Assembly: GCA_021163155.1 (NCBI GenBank)
Contig: JAGGXI010000093.1
Location: forward strand, 1 to 11,539
Direction of reading: 5' to 3'
DNA from: Candidatus Aerophobota bacterium
Lineage (GTDB): Bacteria > Aerophobota > Aerophobia > Aerophobales > JAGGXI01
DNA: 11,539 nt
This document shows positions 2,950-11,023 of this stretch, one piece after another (position 1 is the stretch's first letter; every line of letters begins with the position of its first letter). The notes under the pieces are model-generated. The model worked only from the letters and a program-made list of their open reading frames with translations. It was not told where the DNA came from and did no database searches. The position numbers were made by a program, and so were the translations under genes.

Positions 2950-3087
2950 ATGAAGACACATAAGGATTTGGATGTTTGGAAAGAATCCATTGAATTGGTA
3001 ACAAAAATTTATCCCATGAAGTATAGCAAGCTACTTCACGGGGTGGGTTTAATTCACTACTTGAGGAAGAAGAAAAATGAAAAATAA
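2950..3087 (+). pseudogene. Four-helix-bundle protein (23S rRNA intervening-sequence family), internally deleted
   Basis: This 45-codon ORF starts THKDLDVWKESIELVTKIY after the initial MK, the standard first helix of the four-helix-bundle family found in 23S rRNA intervening sequences and elsewhere. It ends GLIHYLRKKKNEK, which resembles that family's last helix. Intact members have about 115-125 residues, so roughly 75 residues of the middle are missing. The junction codes only for PMKYSKLLHG, which comes from the palindrome at 3011-3044. I see a deletion or replacement rather than a working short protein. The function of intact members is unclear. The N-terminal match is strong; the C-terminal match is weaker because it is short. 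Confidence 0.65.
3011..3044 (+). repeat. 34-base palindrome at the deletion point of the four-helix-bundle remnant
   Basis: CCC-A-TGAAGTA (3013-3023) pairs with TACTTCA-C-GGG (3032-3042). This is a 10-bp stem with one A-C mismatch around an 8-base loop, extendable by an A-T and a G-T pair. No T-run follows, so it is not a typical terminator. It lies exactly where the two ends of the broken gene meet. It may be a REP-like or IS200/IS605-end-like hairpin, but no transposase is near. Confidence 0.55.
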
Positions 3088-3196
3088 CGTCTCACGTTTC
3101 ACCTCTCACCTCTCACGTTCTCCTTCTCACGTCTCACAAAATATTTTCGGGGATGGTAGAACAGCGGAGAGGATTATGAGGGTATTATCAACTTAA
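3077..3196 (+). pseudogene. C-terminal remnant of a UDP-GlcNAc 2-epimerase (WecB/WbpI-like), in frame behind 7-bp repeats
   Basis: Bases 3140-3193 read NIFGDGRTAERIMRVL plus ST and a stop. This matches the last helix of UDP-GlcNAc 2-epimerases, where NP(Y/F)GDG is followed by a helix with xxERIxxxL. The intact NeuC later in this window has the same element (NPYGDGNASKYVV). Everything before it is missing: the frame runs back through the 7-bp repeats to an ATG at 3077, a 39-codon ORF with a repeat-coded first half. Because it lies just downstream of the WbpB/D/E-like genes, the lost gene could have been the WbpI-type epimerase of that pathway. It is unlikely to make a functional product. The identification rests on about 18 codons. 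Confidence 0.55.
3089..3137 (+). repeat. Seven tandem degenerate 7-bp units (consensus YTCTCAC)
   Basis: From 3089 the sequence divides exactly into seven units of seven bases. Most read GTCTCAC or CTCTCAC; GTTTCAC, TTCTCAC and GTTCTCC are the variants. This is the reverse complement of the run at 1091-1153. It begins one base after the four-helix-bundle remnant's stop codon and ends two bases before the 2-epimerase remnant. Confidence 0.75.
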
Positions 3197-3254: not shown

Positions 3255-3518
3255 ATGAAAGTATTAGTTACAGGAGCAGGTGGATTTATTGGTTCACATT
3301 TATGTGAGGCATTAGTTGAAAATGGATATGAAGTAAAAGCCTTTGTGAGATACAATTCTCGAAACTTTTGGGGATGGTTGGAAACTTCTCCTTACAAAGA
3401 AGATATGGAAATAATTGCCGGCGATATAAGAGATTACGATAGTGTAAAGGATGCGATGAGAGATACTGATACTATATTCCACTTAGTTATTTTAAAATGC
3501 GTTGGCTCTTGCAAGTAG
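3255..3518 (+). pseudogene. legB: LegB-type NDP-sugar 4,6-dehydratase (extended SDR), only the N-terminal quarter left
   Basis: Residues 1-78 are the start of an extended short-chain dehydrogenase: KVLVTGAGGFIGSHLCEAL with the GxxGxxG NAD site, VKAFVRYNSRNFWGWLE, GDIRD and IFHL. The YNSxxxWGWL stretch is what I know from LegB, the NAD-dependent UDP-GlcNAc 4,6-dehydratase that opens the legionaminic acid route. Family members have about 320-340 residues. Here similarity stops after FHL, where AALIAIPYSY-like sequence would follow, and nine unrelated residues lead to a stop. The catalytic Ser/Thr, Glu and YxxxK residues are all lost, so no activity is possible from this fragment. Start and GAGAG ribosome site (3245-3249) are intact. 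No continuation was found before the next gene. Confidence 0.75.
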
Positions 3519-4570: not shown

Positions 4571-5668
4571 ATGAGGAAGGTTGAATTGGATGCACCTAAT
4601 CTGGGAGAGCATGAAAAACAGTATCTTAATAAATGTATCGATTTATCTTTTGTTTCCACAGTGGGTCCATTCGTTCCAGAGTTTGAAGAAAAATTTGCAA
4701 AATATATTGGTGTAAGAAAAGCGATCTCAGTGCAAAGCGGAACAGCAGCCTTGCACATAGCTCTTTATGAATTAGGAATTGGAAAAGGTGATGAGGTAAT
4801 CGTGCCTGCTCTTACATTTATTGCCACTATAAATCCCATATTATATGTAGAAGCAAAACCTGTGATTGTTGATGTGGATTTAGAAACCTGGAATATTGAC
4901 CCAGAAGAGATTAAAAAAGCTGTTACCAAAAATACTAAAGCTATAATTCCCGTTCATCTTTATGGGAATCCTTGTAATATGGATGCTATAATGAAAATAG
5001 CTGAAGAATACAATCTTTATGTGATAGAGGATGCTACAGAAAGCCTTGGTGCAACTTACAAAGGAAAACAGACAGGAACTTTTGGAGACTTTGGTTGCTT
5101 CAGTTTCAATGGAAACAAATTGATAACTACTGGTGGTGGTGGAATGGTTGTAACAGGTGATGAGAAAAGAGCTGAGCATATTAAATTCCTTGTCAATCAA
5201 GCAAGAGACGATTCCAAAGGTTACTACCATCCAGAAATGGGCTTTAATTATAGAATGACAAATATTGAGGCAGCCCTGGGTTTAGCTCAATTAAAAAGAA
5301 TTGATGAATTTTTAAACAAAAAAAGGAAATTCAGACAGATTTATCAAGAAGTTTTAATTGATTTACCATATGTGAAATTTCAGAAAGAATGCAATGGAAC
5401 GGAGGGTAGTTGGTGGCTTACCTGTATTAAGATTGAAAAAGATGTGAATATTGATAGCTTAATGGAGAAGTTGAAAGAAAAGGGTATCCAAACAAGAAGA
5501 ATATTTGTTCCAGCTTGTGAGATGCCTTATTTAAAAAAATACTCGACTGAATGTCCAAATGCATATAAAATCTACCAAAAGGGAATTTGTTTACCCAGTT
5601 CAACATTAAATACTGCGGATAGCGTAAAGGGAGCCGGTTTAATAATTAAAGAGCTCTTAAATGGCTAA
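4571..5668 (+). CDS. legC: DegT-family PLP aminotransferase, LegC type (4-keto-6-deoxy sugar 4-aminotransferase)
   Basis: This 365-residue protein has the DegT order: WVSS-like SFVSTVGPFVPEFEEKF (26-42), QSGTAALHIAL (55-65), PALTFIATINPI (79-90), IEDATESLGA (152-161) with the PLP-ring Asp at 154, and SFNGNKLITTGGGG with the PLP lysine at 183. The triple-Gly after the lysine and the TVGPFV opening match LegC-like enzymes, which move an amino group from glutamate to C4 of a UDP-4-keto-6-deoxy-HexNAc. It is distinct from the WbpE-like protein at 1147. GAAGGA lies 7 bases before ATG. It overlaps the next gene by 8 bases, so the two are probably translationally coupled. The role in legionaminic-type synthesis rests on the neuD, neuC, neuB and ptmE neighbours. 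Its expected substrate donor, LegB, is broken in this window. Confidence 0.85.
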   Translation: MRKVELDAPNLGEHEKQYLNKCIDLSFVSTVGPFVPEFEEKFAKYIGVRKAISVQSGTAALHIALYELGIGKGDEVIVPALTFIATINPILYVEAKPVIVDVDLETWNIDPEEIKKAVTKNTKAIIPVHLYGNPCNMDAIMKIAEEYNLYVIEDATESLGATYKGKQTGTFGDFGCFSFNGNKLITTGGGGMVVTGDEKRAEHIKFLVNQARDDSKGYYHPEMGFNYRMTNIEAALGLAQLKRIDEFLNKKRKFRQIYQEVLIDLPYVKFQKECNGTEGSWWLTCIKIEKDVNIDSLMEKLKEKGIQTRRIFVPACEMPYLKKYSTECPNAYKIYQKGICLPSSTLNTADSVKGAGLIIKELLNG

Positions 5669-6320
5669 GAAGAAAATTATTGTGATAGGTGGCGGTGGTC
5701 ACTGCAAGGTAGTTATCTCTCAATTAAAAAAATTGGCCAAATTTGAAATCGTGGGTATTGTAGACAATTACAAATCAATAGGAAACATGGTAATGGACAT
5801 CAAAGTTATAGGAGAAGATGAAGATTTAAGGAATCTTTACAGGAAAGACGTTCATTATGCTTTAATCACCGTTGGTAGTATCAGAGACAATACAAAAAGA
5901 TGTAAGCTGTTCAATATGGCGAAAGAAGTTGGATATAAATTTCCTGTCATCATTTCACCTACAGCGATGGCGGACGAGTCCGTCAAAATAGGTGAAGGAA
6001 CCGTTGTTATGCCTGGATGCGTAGTTAATGTTGATTCATCCATTGGCAAAAACTGCATCATAAATACTGGGGCAATAATAGAGCACGATTGCAAGATTGG
6101 AAACCACTGCCATATCGCTCCCGGTGCACATCTTTCAGGTGAAGTTGAGATAGATGATTTAAGTTTTATTGGCATTGGCAGTACAATCATTCAAACTATA
6201 AGAATAGGAAAGAATGTCACCGTTGGGGCGGGAAGCATAGTAATAAATGATATACCGGATAATGTAGCAGTAGTGGGTAATCCAGCAAGGATAGTAAAAA
6301 GCAAAAAAAATGATGCGTGA
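5661..6320 (+). CDS. neuD: NeuD/PglD-family sugar O- or N-acetyltransferase (LegH type)
   Basis: The 219 residues form two parts. Residues 1-95 are the Rossmann-like sugar-nucleotide domain with IIVIGGGGHCKVV (6-18). Residues 105-212 form a left-handed beta-helix of hexapeptide repeats (VKIGEGTVV, SSIGKNCII, CKIGNHCHI, IRIGKNVTV) ending GNPARIV. EHDC at 141-144 carries the likely catalytic His at 142, with a second His at 151. In PglD-like relatives this His deprotonates the C4 amino group of the UDP-4-amino sugar for acetylation by acetyl-CoA. Directly after LegC and overlapping it by 8 bases, it most likely acetylates LegC's product. NeuD homologues can instead O-acetylate sialic acids, so the acceptor is inferred. 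Length is normal for the family. Confidence 0.85.
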   Translation: MAKKKIIVIGGGGHCKVVISQLKKLAKFEIVGIVDNYKSIGNMVMDIKVIGEDEDLRNLYRKDVHYALITVGSIRDNTKRCKLFNMAKEVGYKFPVIISPTAMADESVKIGEGTVVMPGCVVNVDSSIGKNCIINTGAIIEHDCKIGNHCHIAPGAHLSGEVEIDDLSFIGIGSTIIQTIRIGKNVTVGAGSIVINDIPDNVAVVGNPARIVKSKKNDA

Positions 6321-6395: not shown

Positions 6396-6479
6396 ATGAA
6401 AATCTTAATAATTTCTCCTCATCCGGATGATGAAACATTAGGAGTAATTATGAGTAGGTTCATTAAGGCATATAGGTGA
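6396..6479 (+). pseudogene. N-terminal remnant of a PIG-L/LmbE-type deacetylase
   Basis: A 27-codon ORF reads KILIISPHPDDETLGVI after its Met, which is the zinc-site signature (PHPDDE) of PIG-L/LmbE de-N-acetylases. It then continues for 10 codons without the expected GCGG stretch and stops at 6477-6479, overlapping the neuC start. Whole members have about 200-250 residues. PIG-L deacetylases occur in some nonulosonic-acid clusters, so a gene of the operon seems to have been lost here by deletion. The 75 bases before it (6321-6395) show nothing recognised. Confidence 0.7.
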
Positions 6480-7684
6480 TGATGATGGGCAAAAAGAGAA
6501 TTTTTATATTTACTACAACAAGAGCAGATTATGGATTGTTGAAATGGATAATAGACAAACTTCAGAGTTCTTCAGAGTTTGAAGTTTATGTAGTTGTAGG
6601 TGGTATGCATCTTTCTGAAATACACGGTCATACAGTTAGAGAAATATTAAAAGATAATGTGAGAAATATTGTGGAGGTCCCGTTTTTAAGCTCTTCATCA
6701 AATGCTACCGCTCTGGTTTCTTCTATTGGAAATGGATTGATTCAAATTTCGCAAGTATTTTCTGCCTATAAGCCTGATTTCTTAATTCTGTTAGGTGATA
6801 GGTACGAACTCTTTATCTCGGTTATCGCAGCTTTAATATGCAGGATACCTATTGTTCACTTTCATGGAGGAGAAATAACAGAAGGAGTCATAGACGAACA
6901 GGTACGACATGCTATTACAAAGATGGCTCATATACATATGCCTTCAACGGGGTTCTACGCAGAAAACATAAGCAAAATGGGGGAAGATGATTGGCGCATT
7001 CATATTGTAGGAGCTCCAGGAATTGAAAATATAAAAAAAATAAAGTTTTATTCAAACAACGAAATCTTAGAGTTAACAGGTGTAAACGTGGATAAACCAA
7101 CTATTCTGTGCACCTATCACCCAGTTACCCTTGAAGGTGAGGAAAATGTAACCTGGCAGATGAGTAATTTACTGAAAGCTTTGTCTAAATTTAGCTTGCA
7201 GGTAGTTTTCACAAGACCTAATGCAGAGGTTGGCTCTGACAAAATAGTGGAGATGATAAAAGATTTTGTAGGCAAAAATGATAAGGCATATTTTTTTGAT
7301 AGTCTTGGCTCAAGACTATATTTAAGTTTCCTCAAATACGTAAAAGCAGTAGTAGGCAACTCCTCAAGTGGTATTATAGAAGCCCCTTCTTTTCATATCC
7401 CTACAATAAATATAGGAAACAGACAAAAGGGGAGGTTTAAATTGAAAAGTGTTATTCAAACAGGATATTCAGTTAATGAAATTATGGAAGGATTAGAAAA
7501 AGCCCTATATAATCAGGGATTTTTAGAACAAATAAAATATATTAAAAATCCCTACGGTGACGGTAATGCAAGTAAATACGTAGTTGAAGCAATGGAAGAG
7601 GTTGTTAAGATTCCCAAAGAAAAGCTCTTGAAAAAAAAGTTGAATTTTGAGGTGAAAAAAGATGAATGGCACAGATATTTTTGA
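6476..7684 (+). CDS. neuC: Hydrolysing UDP-sugar 2-epimerase, NeuC/LegG type
   Basis: This makes about 400 residues. GTG 6476 and ATGs at 6479, 6482 and 6485 are all in frame; AAGG (6466-6469) and AGGTGA do not settle the start. Motifs from GTG: TTTRADYGLL (13-22), GDRYE (107-111), HFHGGE (128-133), TYHPVT (213-218), GNSSSGIIEAPSF (294-306) and NPYGDGNASKYVV (358-370), all typical of the GT-B-fold 2-epimerase family. NeuC/LegG members hydrolyse the UDP-sugar while inverting C2, giving free ManNAc or 2,4-diacetamido-2,4,6-trideoxymannose for NeuB. The neighbours favour the second. It overlaps neuB by 23 bases and the PIG-L remnant by 4. Confidence 0.9.
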   Translation: MMMMGKKRIFIFTTTRADYGLLKWIIDKLQSSSEFEVYVVVGGMHLSEIHGHTVREILKDNVRNIVEVPFLSSSSNATALVSSIGNGLIQISQVFSAYKPDFLILLGDRYELFISVIAALICRIPIVHFHGGEITEGVIDEQVRHAITKMAHIHMPSTGFYAENISKMGEDDWRIHIVGAPGIENIKKIKFYSNNEILELTGVNVDKPTILCTYHPVTLEGEENVTWQMSNLLKALSKFSLQVVFTRPNAEVGSDKIVEMIKDFVGKNDKAYFFDSLGSRLYLSFLKYVKAVVGNSSSGIIEAPSFHIPTINIGNRQKGRFKLKSVIQTGYSVNEIMEGLEKALYNQGFLEQIKYIKNPYGDGNASKYVVEAMEEVVKIPKEKLLKKKLNFEVKKDEWHRYF

Positions 7685-8735
7685 AGATAAATGTTTCATT
7701 ATCGCTGAAGCAGGAGTAAATCATAATGGTAGTTTGGAGCTTGCTTATAAACTTGTGGATGTAGCCGTAAAAGCTGGTGTAGATGCAGTGAAATTTCAAA
7801 CTTTTAAAACAGAAAACGTGGTTTCAAAAAATGCTGAGAAAGCTGATTATCAAAAGAAGACAATGGGCACTGGTGAGTCTCAATTTGAAATGATTAAAAA
7901 ACTTGAACTTCCATTTGAAGACTTTAAAAAGATTAAAAAATATTGTGATAAAAAGGGCATTATATTTCTATCTACTCCTTTTGATTATGAAAGTGCGGAT
8001 TTTCTTGAAAGCTTGGTGCCTTTGTATAAAATTGGCTCTGGAGAAATTACCAATTTACCATTTTTGGAATACATTGCCGAGAAAGGCAAACCTATAATTT
8101 TATCTACAGGAATGTCCACCCTTGGAGAAGTCGAAGAAGCCATCACTACGATAATAAATGTAAATCCTTCTTTCTTTGATACCTCTCACCTCTCACCTCT
8201 CACCTCTCACGCTTCGCCTTTAACCCTTCTTCACTGTATTAGTAACTACCCTGCTGAATATGAAGATGTTAACCTGAAAGCTATGCTAACCTTAAAGGAA
8301 GCATTTAAACTTCCCGTGGGTTATTCTGATCACACATTAGGAATAGAAGTTCCTATTGCCGCCGTTGCTATGGGAGCAACTATAATAGAAAAACATTTTA
8401 CATTGGATAAAAATTTATCCGGCCCTGATCATAGGGCATCTCTTGAACCTGATGAGTTAAAGGCAATGGTGAAAGCAATAAGAAATGTTGAAAAATCTTT
8501 GGGGGATGGCATAAAAAGACCTACTCAAAGTGAGCTTCAAGTAATGAAAGTAGTAAGAAGAAGTCTTGTTGCCAAAAAAGACATTAGAGCTGGAGAAACA
8601 GTGAAAGAATCAGATATGCTCGTAAAGAGGCCAGCAACAGGTATTCCGCCAAAATTTAAGGAAATAGTTATCGGTATGAAGCCTACGAGAAGTATCAAGA
8701 AAGATGAGTTATTTAATTGGGAGGATTTTAAGTAA
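7662..8735 (+). CDS. neuB: Nonulosonic acid synthase NeuB/LegI type, with a 7-bp repeat inserted in frame
   Basis: This condenses the NeuC product with phosphoenolpyruvate to a nine-carbon 2-keto acid. The 357 residues show the TIM-barrel NeuB domain: AEAGVNHNG (15-23), VKFQTFK (43-49), YKIGSGEI (122-129), LLHCISNYP (189-197), GYSDHT (220-225) and EKHFTL (243-248). The His of the last two are the known Mn2+ ligands. A C-terminal SAF (antifreeze-like) domain from about 295 has RRSLVAKKDI and VKRPATG. Just before LLHC is DTSHLSPLTSHASPLT (173-188), coded by four perfect CTCTCAC units and flanks; relatives have only a short loop there. All catalytic residues are kept, so the enzyme may still work. 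GAGGTG lies 7 bases before ATG. The stop overlaps the next ATG by one base. Confidence 0.9.
   Translation: MNGTDIFEDKCFIIAEAGVNHNGSLELAYKLVDVAVKAGVDAVKFQTFKTENVVSKNAEKADYQKKTMGTGESQFEMIKKLELPFEDFKKIKKYCDKKGIIFLSTPFDYESADFLESLVPLYKIGSGEITNLPFLEYIAEKGKPIILSTGMSTLGEVEEAITTIINVNPSFFDTSHLSPLTSHASPLTLLHCISNYPAEYEDVNLKAMLTLKEAFKLPVGYSDHTLGIEVPIAAVAMGATIIEKHFTLDKNLSGPDHRASLEPDELKAMVKAIRNVEKSLGDGIKRPTQSELQVMKVVRRSLVAKKDIRAGETVKESDMLVKRPATGIPPKFKEIVIGMKPTRSIKKDELFNWEDFK
8183..8210 (+). repeat. Four perfect CTCTCAC units inside the neuB coding sequence
   Basis: The unit repeats without change four times, followed by the diverged GCTTCGCC. It is the same family as 1091-1153 and 3089-3137 but is the cleanest copy, so it may be the youngest. 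The reading frame stays open and codes alternating Ser, His, Leu, Pro and Thr. Confidence 0.85.
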
Positions 8736-9955: not shown

Positions 9956-11023
9956 ATGGGTGATATTTTAAAGCCATTTATTATTGGAGAAACAGCCTAC
10001 AATCATGAAGGTGATATTAATTATCTTTTAAAAATGGTAGATGAGATTGCAGAAATAAAATTAAATGCAGTGAAATTTCATCTGTTATTAAATCCTGAAA
10101 GTTATATGCAGAAAAAACATCCCTTAATAGGAGAAACAAAAAAATGGATTTTTGATAAAAAGCAGTGGGATGACATTATTGATTATGCGAATGAAAAAGA
10201 ATTAGATGTAGTAGCTTTATGTGACGATGTTGAGAGTATTGAGTACATTTTAAAAAATGGTAAAAATGTTAATGCAATAGAACTTCATGCCACGGGATTG
10301 GATGATTATTTTTTGCTTGATGCTGTGCTGGGGTTTAATAAACAAATTATTCTGGGTATAGGAGGCTCTACCATAGATGAAATCCAATATGCTGTTAGCT
10401 TTTTGAAGAATAAAGAGGAAAACAATATTCTTCTAATGTATGGATTTCAAAGTTATCCCACTCAATACATCGATATTAATTTATCTAAAATGCTTAAGAT
10501 TAGAGATTTATTTAATCTCCCAGTTGGATATGCAGATCATACGGCATATAACGATCCAAACAATGAAATTATCAGTGTTATGGCAGCAATGATGGGCTTT
10601 AACATCTTGGAAAAGCACTACACGCCTGATTATGGTAAGGAAAGAATAGATTATCATTCTGCAGTTGGTAAAGAGCAAATGTCAAAAATAAAAGAGTTAA
10701 TGAAGTTGGCTTTGACGGTCTACGGAGATGGTGGGTTAGCAATGTCAAAAGCAGAACTTGAGTATGGTAGTGTTGGACCAATGAAAAAGGCAATCGTATC
10801 CAAGAAATTTATTAAAAAAGGCGAAAAACTTTCTTTTGATAATCTCTGGTTTAAAAGAACAGAAGAAGAAAGTTACATAAAGCAATATCAATTTTTGCAA
10901 CTAATTGGTTTGGAAGCAACTCAAGATATAAAAGAAGACGAAATAGTGGATTTTAGTAAAGTTAAATATGAATTTAAGGAATTAGATACCAAGAGTTTTA
11001 CAAATATAGATAAGGATGATTAA
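9956..11023 (+). CDS. Second, divergent NeuB-family synthase with C-terminal SAF domain
   Basis: ATG 9956 is chosen because AAAAGGAG ends 5 bases before it; an upstream ATG at 9920 has no such site. The 355 residues follow the NeuB layout: GETAYNHEG (11-19), LNAVKFHLLL (36-45), GYADHT (191-196) and EKHYT (219-223), so both metal-binding His (195, 221) are kept. A SAF domain from about 275 has KKAIVSKKFIKKGE and FKR. Three sites differ from normal NeuB: KIGSGE is replaced by AIELHATG (107-114), LLHC by LLMYG (159-163), and GPDHRASL by DYHSAV. It therefore probably condenses PEP with a different aldose, or may be inactive. It sits before an SpsF-type cytidylyltransferase, suggesting a second CMP-activated acid. 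Its product is unknown. Confidence 0.8.
   Translation: MGDILKPFIIGETAYNHEGDINYLLKMVDEIAEIKLNAVKFHLLLNPESYMQKKHPLIGETKKWIFDKKQWDDIIDYANEKELDVVALCDDVESIEYILKNGKNVNAIELHATGLDDYFLLDAVLGFNKQIILGIGGSTIDEIQYAVSFLKNKEENNILLMYGFQSYPTQYIDINLSKMLKIRDLFNLPVGYADHTAYNDPNNEIISVMAAMMGFNILEKHYTPDYGKERIDYHSAVGKEQMSKIKELMKLALTVYGDGGLAMSKAELEYGSVGPMKKAIVSKKFIKKGEKLSFDNLWFKRTEEESYIKQYQFLQLIGLEATQDIKEDEIVDFSKVKYEFKELDTKSFTNIDKDD

Follow-up and report, generated by a model that had tools for sequence, protein, structure and literature searches.

The stretch of DNA analysed here, referred to as the window, covers positions 1 to 11,539 of contig JAGGXI010000093.1 from a Candidatus Aerophobota bacterium (NCBI GenBank assembly GCA_021163155.1), and its subject is a short tandem repeat that lies in frame inside a nonulosonate synthase gene. 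The host gene, of the neuB/legI type, occupies positions 7662–8735 on the forward strand and encodes 357 amino acids with NeuB and SAF Pfam domains (TIGR03569, 492.6 bits; cut-off 399.65). At 8181–8210 on the same strand, Tandem Repeats Finder identified a perfect array of period 7 (100% match) comprising 4.3 copies of the unit ACCTCTC, which reads CTCTCAC in another register and GTGAGAG in reverse. These heptads code for TSHLSPLTSH and are followed at 8211–8222 (forward strand) by decayed fifth and sixth units (ACGCTTC and GCCTTTA, counting from 8209) that code for ASPL. The repeat part of the gene is best counted as six units, four perfect and two decayed, equivalent to 42 bp or 14 codons. 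It begins at codon 174 of the 357 in the gene, and the open reading frame (ORF) 7662–8735 is free of stops across it. The 30-bp perfect run is the longest of period 7 in the window; when the window was simulated 200 times with an order-1 Markov model, the longest such run measured 23 bp at most and 14.5 bp on average.

Comparison with homologues points to an insertion. This NeuB has 55 residues in the segment that runs from ILSTGMS to NYPAEY and ~103 of ~108 homologues have 37–42, so that homologues do not generally carry a loop of such length. When the six units are dropped, 41 residues remain, which is the normal length among homologues and the basis on which the decayed units are counted with the array. 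Longer segments occur in a Nitrospirae metagenome-assembled genome (MAG; 45 residues), an Omnitrophota MAG (48) and two Bacillales (64), with loops of unrelated sequence, and no heptad array was found at the loci of these homologues. A naturally long NeuB loop was rejected as an explanation, as the two Bacillales proteins are the only homologues with a longer one. Solved structures of NeuB, PseI and SpsE are likewise without the inserted residues. The closest NeuB homologue found (67%) lies on a contig binned as Lokiarchaeota, which reflects either transfer or a binning error. A preliminary description of the window, made from its sequence, had proposed that four perfect CTCTCAC copies and a decayed flank add ~15 residues just before the LLHC strand, with normal NeuB sequence on either side. 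The alignment and the solved structures agree with it in each of these respects and put the net insertion at about 13–15 residues.

The AlphaFold model of the protein has a mean predicted local distance difference test score (pLDDT) of 91.5, with runs below 50 only at residues 1–7 and 175–183. The latter run falls between helix 154–167 and strand 187–191, and the triosephosphate isomerase (TIM) barrel remains intact around it; the model superposes on Neisseria NeuB 2wqp with a VIA Z of 36.9. The catalytic-domain residues that are invariant among the homologues, including E16, N20, H21, K44, K123, H224, H245, and R323 of this protein, are kept. In TIM barrels, loops that lead from a helix to a strand are found on the side opposite the active site. 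The insert is modelled as a low-confidence loop; we infer that this loop is exposed to solvent and that NeuB with the insert is active as an enzyme. The preliminary description had the repeat entering an essential position of the enzyme. This wording misleads, as the insert sits in a helix-to-strand barrel loop of naturally variable length and the fold is predicted to be intact.

The same description had noted the repeat family at two further sites in the window, and both were recovered by Tandem Repeats Finder and our survey. A degenerate array on the reverse strand (1088–1157, or 1089–1151 in a narrower delimitation) covers the stop of an upstream gene and the gap before the next gene, and an intergenic array on the forward strand (3084–3139) lies amid gene remnants. 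The family is not restricted to the window, however, but is degenerate, with a core TCACNTY, and scattered throughout the source genome (G000), a draft of 119 contigs that is 93% complete. Allowing at most one mismatch, TCACNTYTCACNTYTCAC has 46 matches in the genome, compared with none for the reversed control, and a looser heptad pattern has 178 matches compared with 24. Roughly 48 arrays were surveyed with their surroundings, a number that is a lower bound for the genome (at least 48 or so). All but two were intergenic or at gene ends, in a genome whose window is ~89% coding; the two intragenic ones are those in NeuB and in a PseC-type aminotransferase gene on contig 18. Heptads of other kinds were seen as well. 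Another class of arrays in the source genome consists of near-identical 60–140 bp blocks with TAATCCT-type heptads (L152:1335–1694 on contig 13; L208), partly at contig ends. Other members of the order (G015, G016, G013, and G001) have heptad families of their own, mostly with a TCAC-like core: that of family f5 is TTCACNA, and G001 has another, with far more than 100 matches of the control pattern.

Most other arrays seen are less pure than the one in NeuB, whose purity would suit a recent local expansion and whose flanks match no other array, so that the repeat alone is held in common; the flanks of the PseC array match no other array either. Both points would fit a local origin, in which a pyrimidine-rich seed arose by chance and expanded without any relation to the intergenic arrays. 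We regard such an origin as improbable, given that the variant family to which it belongs makes up the ~48 surveyed arrays and that the exact tandem CTCTCACCTCTCAC recurs in the genome only at window position 3103 and in the PseC gene. A search of 8080–8320 for inverted repeats found none. A candidate target-site duplication around the array (AATCCTTCTT and AACCCTTCTT, 59 bp apart) was not relied on, because 59 is not a multiple of three and the match is short.

The two strands of the unit differ in what they can encode. On the TCAC strand there is no stop in any frame, and every frame gives one and the same cyclic heptapeptide (L-T-S-H-x-S-x), as 7 and 3 are coprime. On the opposite strand, GTGA supplies TGA in every frame within 21 bp. 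In line with this, every in-frame array is coded by the TCAC strand, while the reversed ones occur at the ends of genes and provide the stop; examples are the upstream gene whose end is at 1108 and the genes for CheB and lumazine synthase.

The second in-frame case in the source genome is the PseC-type aminotransferase on contig 18 (TIGR03588, 497.7 bits). It belongs to a second nonulosonate cluster, in which its gene is directly followed by a second one of the NeuB type. Its array (contig 18, 10268–10313; L147:1969–2014) lies mid-domain and comprises nine units, interrupted by variant units, that code for SYVLRLTSHVSRLTSHLSP. The two more closely related orthologues, in G002 and G008 (~68–70% identical overall), have no insert at this loop. 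By comparison, the orthologue in G006, a member of another family of the same order, carries three units (ACCTCTC ACCTCTT ACCTTCC) at the same loop. The difference between G000 and G006 is exactly six units, that is, 42 bp or 14 residues, and the frame is kept. Together with the genome-wide dispersal (46 matches as against none), the nine-versus-three difference supports the earlier suggestion of a mobile or expanding repeat. In the PseC gene tree, G000 groups with G002, and G006 groups with G001 and G005; vertical inheritance of the insert from the common ancestor of G000 and G006 was set aside, as it is not the simplest reading of this tree.

NeuB and PseC belong to parallel nonulosonate pathways, and a peptide of the type LTSHxSx in both could mean that the insertion has been retained because it serves a purpose itself, for instance as a loop for regulation or for protein-protein contacts that is common to the two enzymes. 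We give this little credence: the DNA yields this peptide whatever the frame, the prediction for the loop is of low confidence, and unrelated enzymes carry the peptide too. Of the further heptad arrays examined in relatives and in distant genomes, several are in frame within proteins. In G001, of the same order, in-frame TCAC-heptad arrays lie in the genes for CarA (L220:1267–1315) and PurL (L219:1306–1340). CarA of G001 scores 511.8 bits and has the linker peptide FNSHSSLLTSHVSRLTS; its orthologue in G006 is exactly 7 residues shorter at the insert site. Further arrays of this kind were found in PurH of the distant genome G376 (L224:1365–1392) and, four times over, in a giant Ig-like protein of the distant genome G138 (L223). 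The net gain in PurL and PurH is small because the repeat partly takes the place of native residues. Arrays in long open frames of G217 and G117 were left out of the count, as these frames appeared to be spurious ORFs. No match to the repeat peptide was found in a plasmid search, and among the papers searched none was relevant to the repeat, either as DNA or as peptide. The occurrence of this type of insertion in independent genomes also bears on the quality of the draft, whose fragmentation, together with the several arrays at contig ends, might suggest an artefact of assembly or binning. With a 30-bp array that is shorter than ordinary reads and a frame that is intact on both sides of it, we consider such an artefact very improbable.

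The location of the array in a sialic-acid-type gene recalls contingency loci, in which slippage changes the unit number and so turns a gene on or off. When units were removed or added in silico, full-length NeuB resulted only at −3, 0, and +3, and changes of −4, −2, −1, +1, +2, and +4 truncated the protein at 177–202 amino acids. This confirms the arithmetic of the preliminary description, by which only every third change in copy number of a 7-base unit restores the frame, and it gives the array the same geometry as a contingency locus, of which neuO in E. coli K1 is an example. In neuO, a heptad array (AAGACTC) near the gene start gives a full-length product only at 3n repeats, with a commonest count of 20, a range of 3–53, and measured variation (PMC13001214). 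Switching of NeuB, and with it of the surface sugar, would also suit the purity of the NeuB array and the fact that both intragenic arrays of the genome, among those surveyed, are in surface-sugar (nonulosonate) genes. The NeuB array resembles that of neuO as a heptanucleotide array inside a sialic-acid gene whose frame is kept only at 3n. It differs in having only 4–6 units, four of them perfect, and in lying mid-gene, at codon 174, rather than near the start. The variant units that interrupt the PseC array should moreover lower slippage, and CarA, PurL and PurH, which carry like insertions, are not contingency genes. The proposal that copy number switches NeuB thus holds as arithmetic, but we consider it unlikely that the array acts as a contingency locus.

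The reading that we favour, and hold to be likely, is that a dispersed heptad repeat is now and then fixed in coding sequence, in the stop-free orientation, in 3n units and in tolerant loops. The NeuB array would then be a coding-sequence copy of the TCACNTY heptad family that is otherwise intergenic, six units of which (42 bp, 14 codons) would have entered the loop between the helix and the LLHC strand of the barrel. The insertion would be tolerated because this loop would lie on the exposed side of the TIM barrel, away from the catalytic one, because the TCAC strand is stop-free in all three frames with the same cyclic peptide in each, and because 3n units leave the reading frame unchanged. 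Over evolutionary time the unit number may shift by slippage or by recombination between arrays, and in a required gene only 3n states would survive. Three observations weigh against this account. The NeuB orthologues compared reach ~70% identity at most, so the empty site in NeuB is deduced from less closely related sequences. In the PseC gene tree, G000 groups with the insert-free G002 and apart from G006, a topology that calls for either two gains of the insert at this loop or its loss on several occasions. Finally, the way in which the units spread, which is presumed here, has left no trace in the form of inverted repeats or shared flanks. On balance, the heptad repeat appears to have given rise repeatedly to protein insertions that were tolerated.

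Upstream of neuB on the forward strand are genes for a LegC-family aminotransferase (4571–5668; TIGR04181, 443.4 bits, cut-off 420), a NeuD-family acetyltransferase (5661–6320; TIGR03570, 236 bits, cut-off 160.8), and a NeuC/LegG-type UDP-N-acetylglucosamine 2-epimerase (6476–7684; TIGR03568, 437 bits, cut-off 235.9). Because LegC-family, NeuC and NeuD genes adjoin it, the NeuB-family gene is probably, judging by gene context, a legionaminate-type synthase (LegI) of a nonulosonate cluster. A second, divergent NeuB-like protein is encoded in the same cluster at 9956–11020 (TIGR03569, 155 bits, below the cut-off). Gene remnants were recognised by eye at 3255–3518, where a sugar-nucleotide epimerase/dehydratase ends after 87 amino acids, and at 6396–6479, where the start of a PIG-L-type deacetylase runs for 27 codons, including an HPDDE motif, before a stop. 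A HicB/HicA toxin-antitoxin-like pair, also recognised by eye only, lies between sugar genes at 2439–2875.

Dispersed heptanucleotide arrays, mostly intergenic, have been described in Beggiatoaceae (unit TAACTGA; PMC4679880) and in Xanthomonas and Nostoc (unit GGGAATC; PMC4692102). The present family is similar to both in its 7-bp unit, its few copies per array and its many arrays per genome, most of them intergenic and some in ORFs, and it shares with TAACTGA the stops in all frames on one strand. Apart from the unit itself (here TCACNTY, with CTCTCAC in NeuB), it differs from TAACTGA in that the coding cases of Beggiatoaceae are mainly at protein ends, whereas those found here are mid-domain in recognisable enzymes, with unit numbers that differ between orthologues. 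For repeats that insert in frame into unrelated genes, the Rickettsia palindromic elements are the known precedent (PMC10969869). Like them, the heptads are found between genes and, at tolerated positions, in frame in unrelated protein genes (NeuB and PseC, CarA and PurL); unlike these ~150-bp palindromes, they form tandem arrays of 21–63 bp without inverted repeats. In its behaviour toward proteins, the heptad family resembles the Rickettsia palindromic elements.

Bacterial heptanucleotide arrays have so far mainly been known from intergenic sites or from the vicinity of gene starts, where they switch the frame. In the present case, an intergenic family is fixed mid-domain in at least four enzymes of one order (NeuB, PseC, CarA, and PurL) and in PurH of a distant genome, and orthologues differ by whole sets of three units. 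A broader and rather doubtful extension is that TCAC-core heptads constitute a cross-phylum class of coding insertions, found in mid-domain loops of core enzymes in the stop-free orientation and in 3n units, with the signature L-T-S-H-x-S-x. In this lineage they might preferentially enter nonulosonate genes, a preference that rests on two cases, and changes in unit number may vary surface sugars. If general, the process would be a simple means for non-coding repeats to contribute loops to proteins, and it could be searched for with a single peptide signature.
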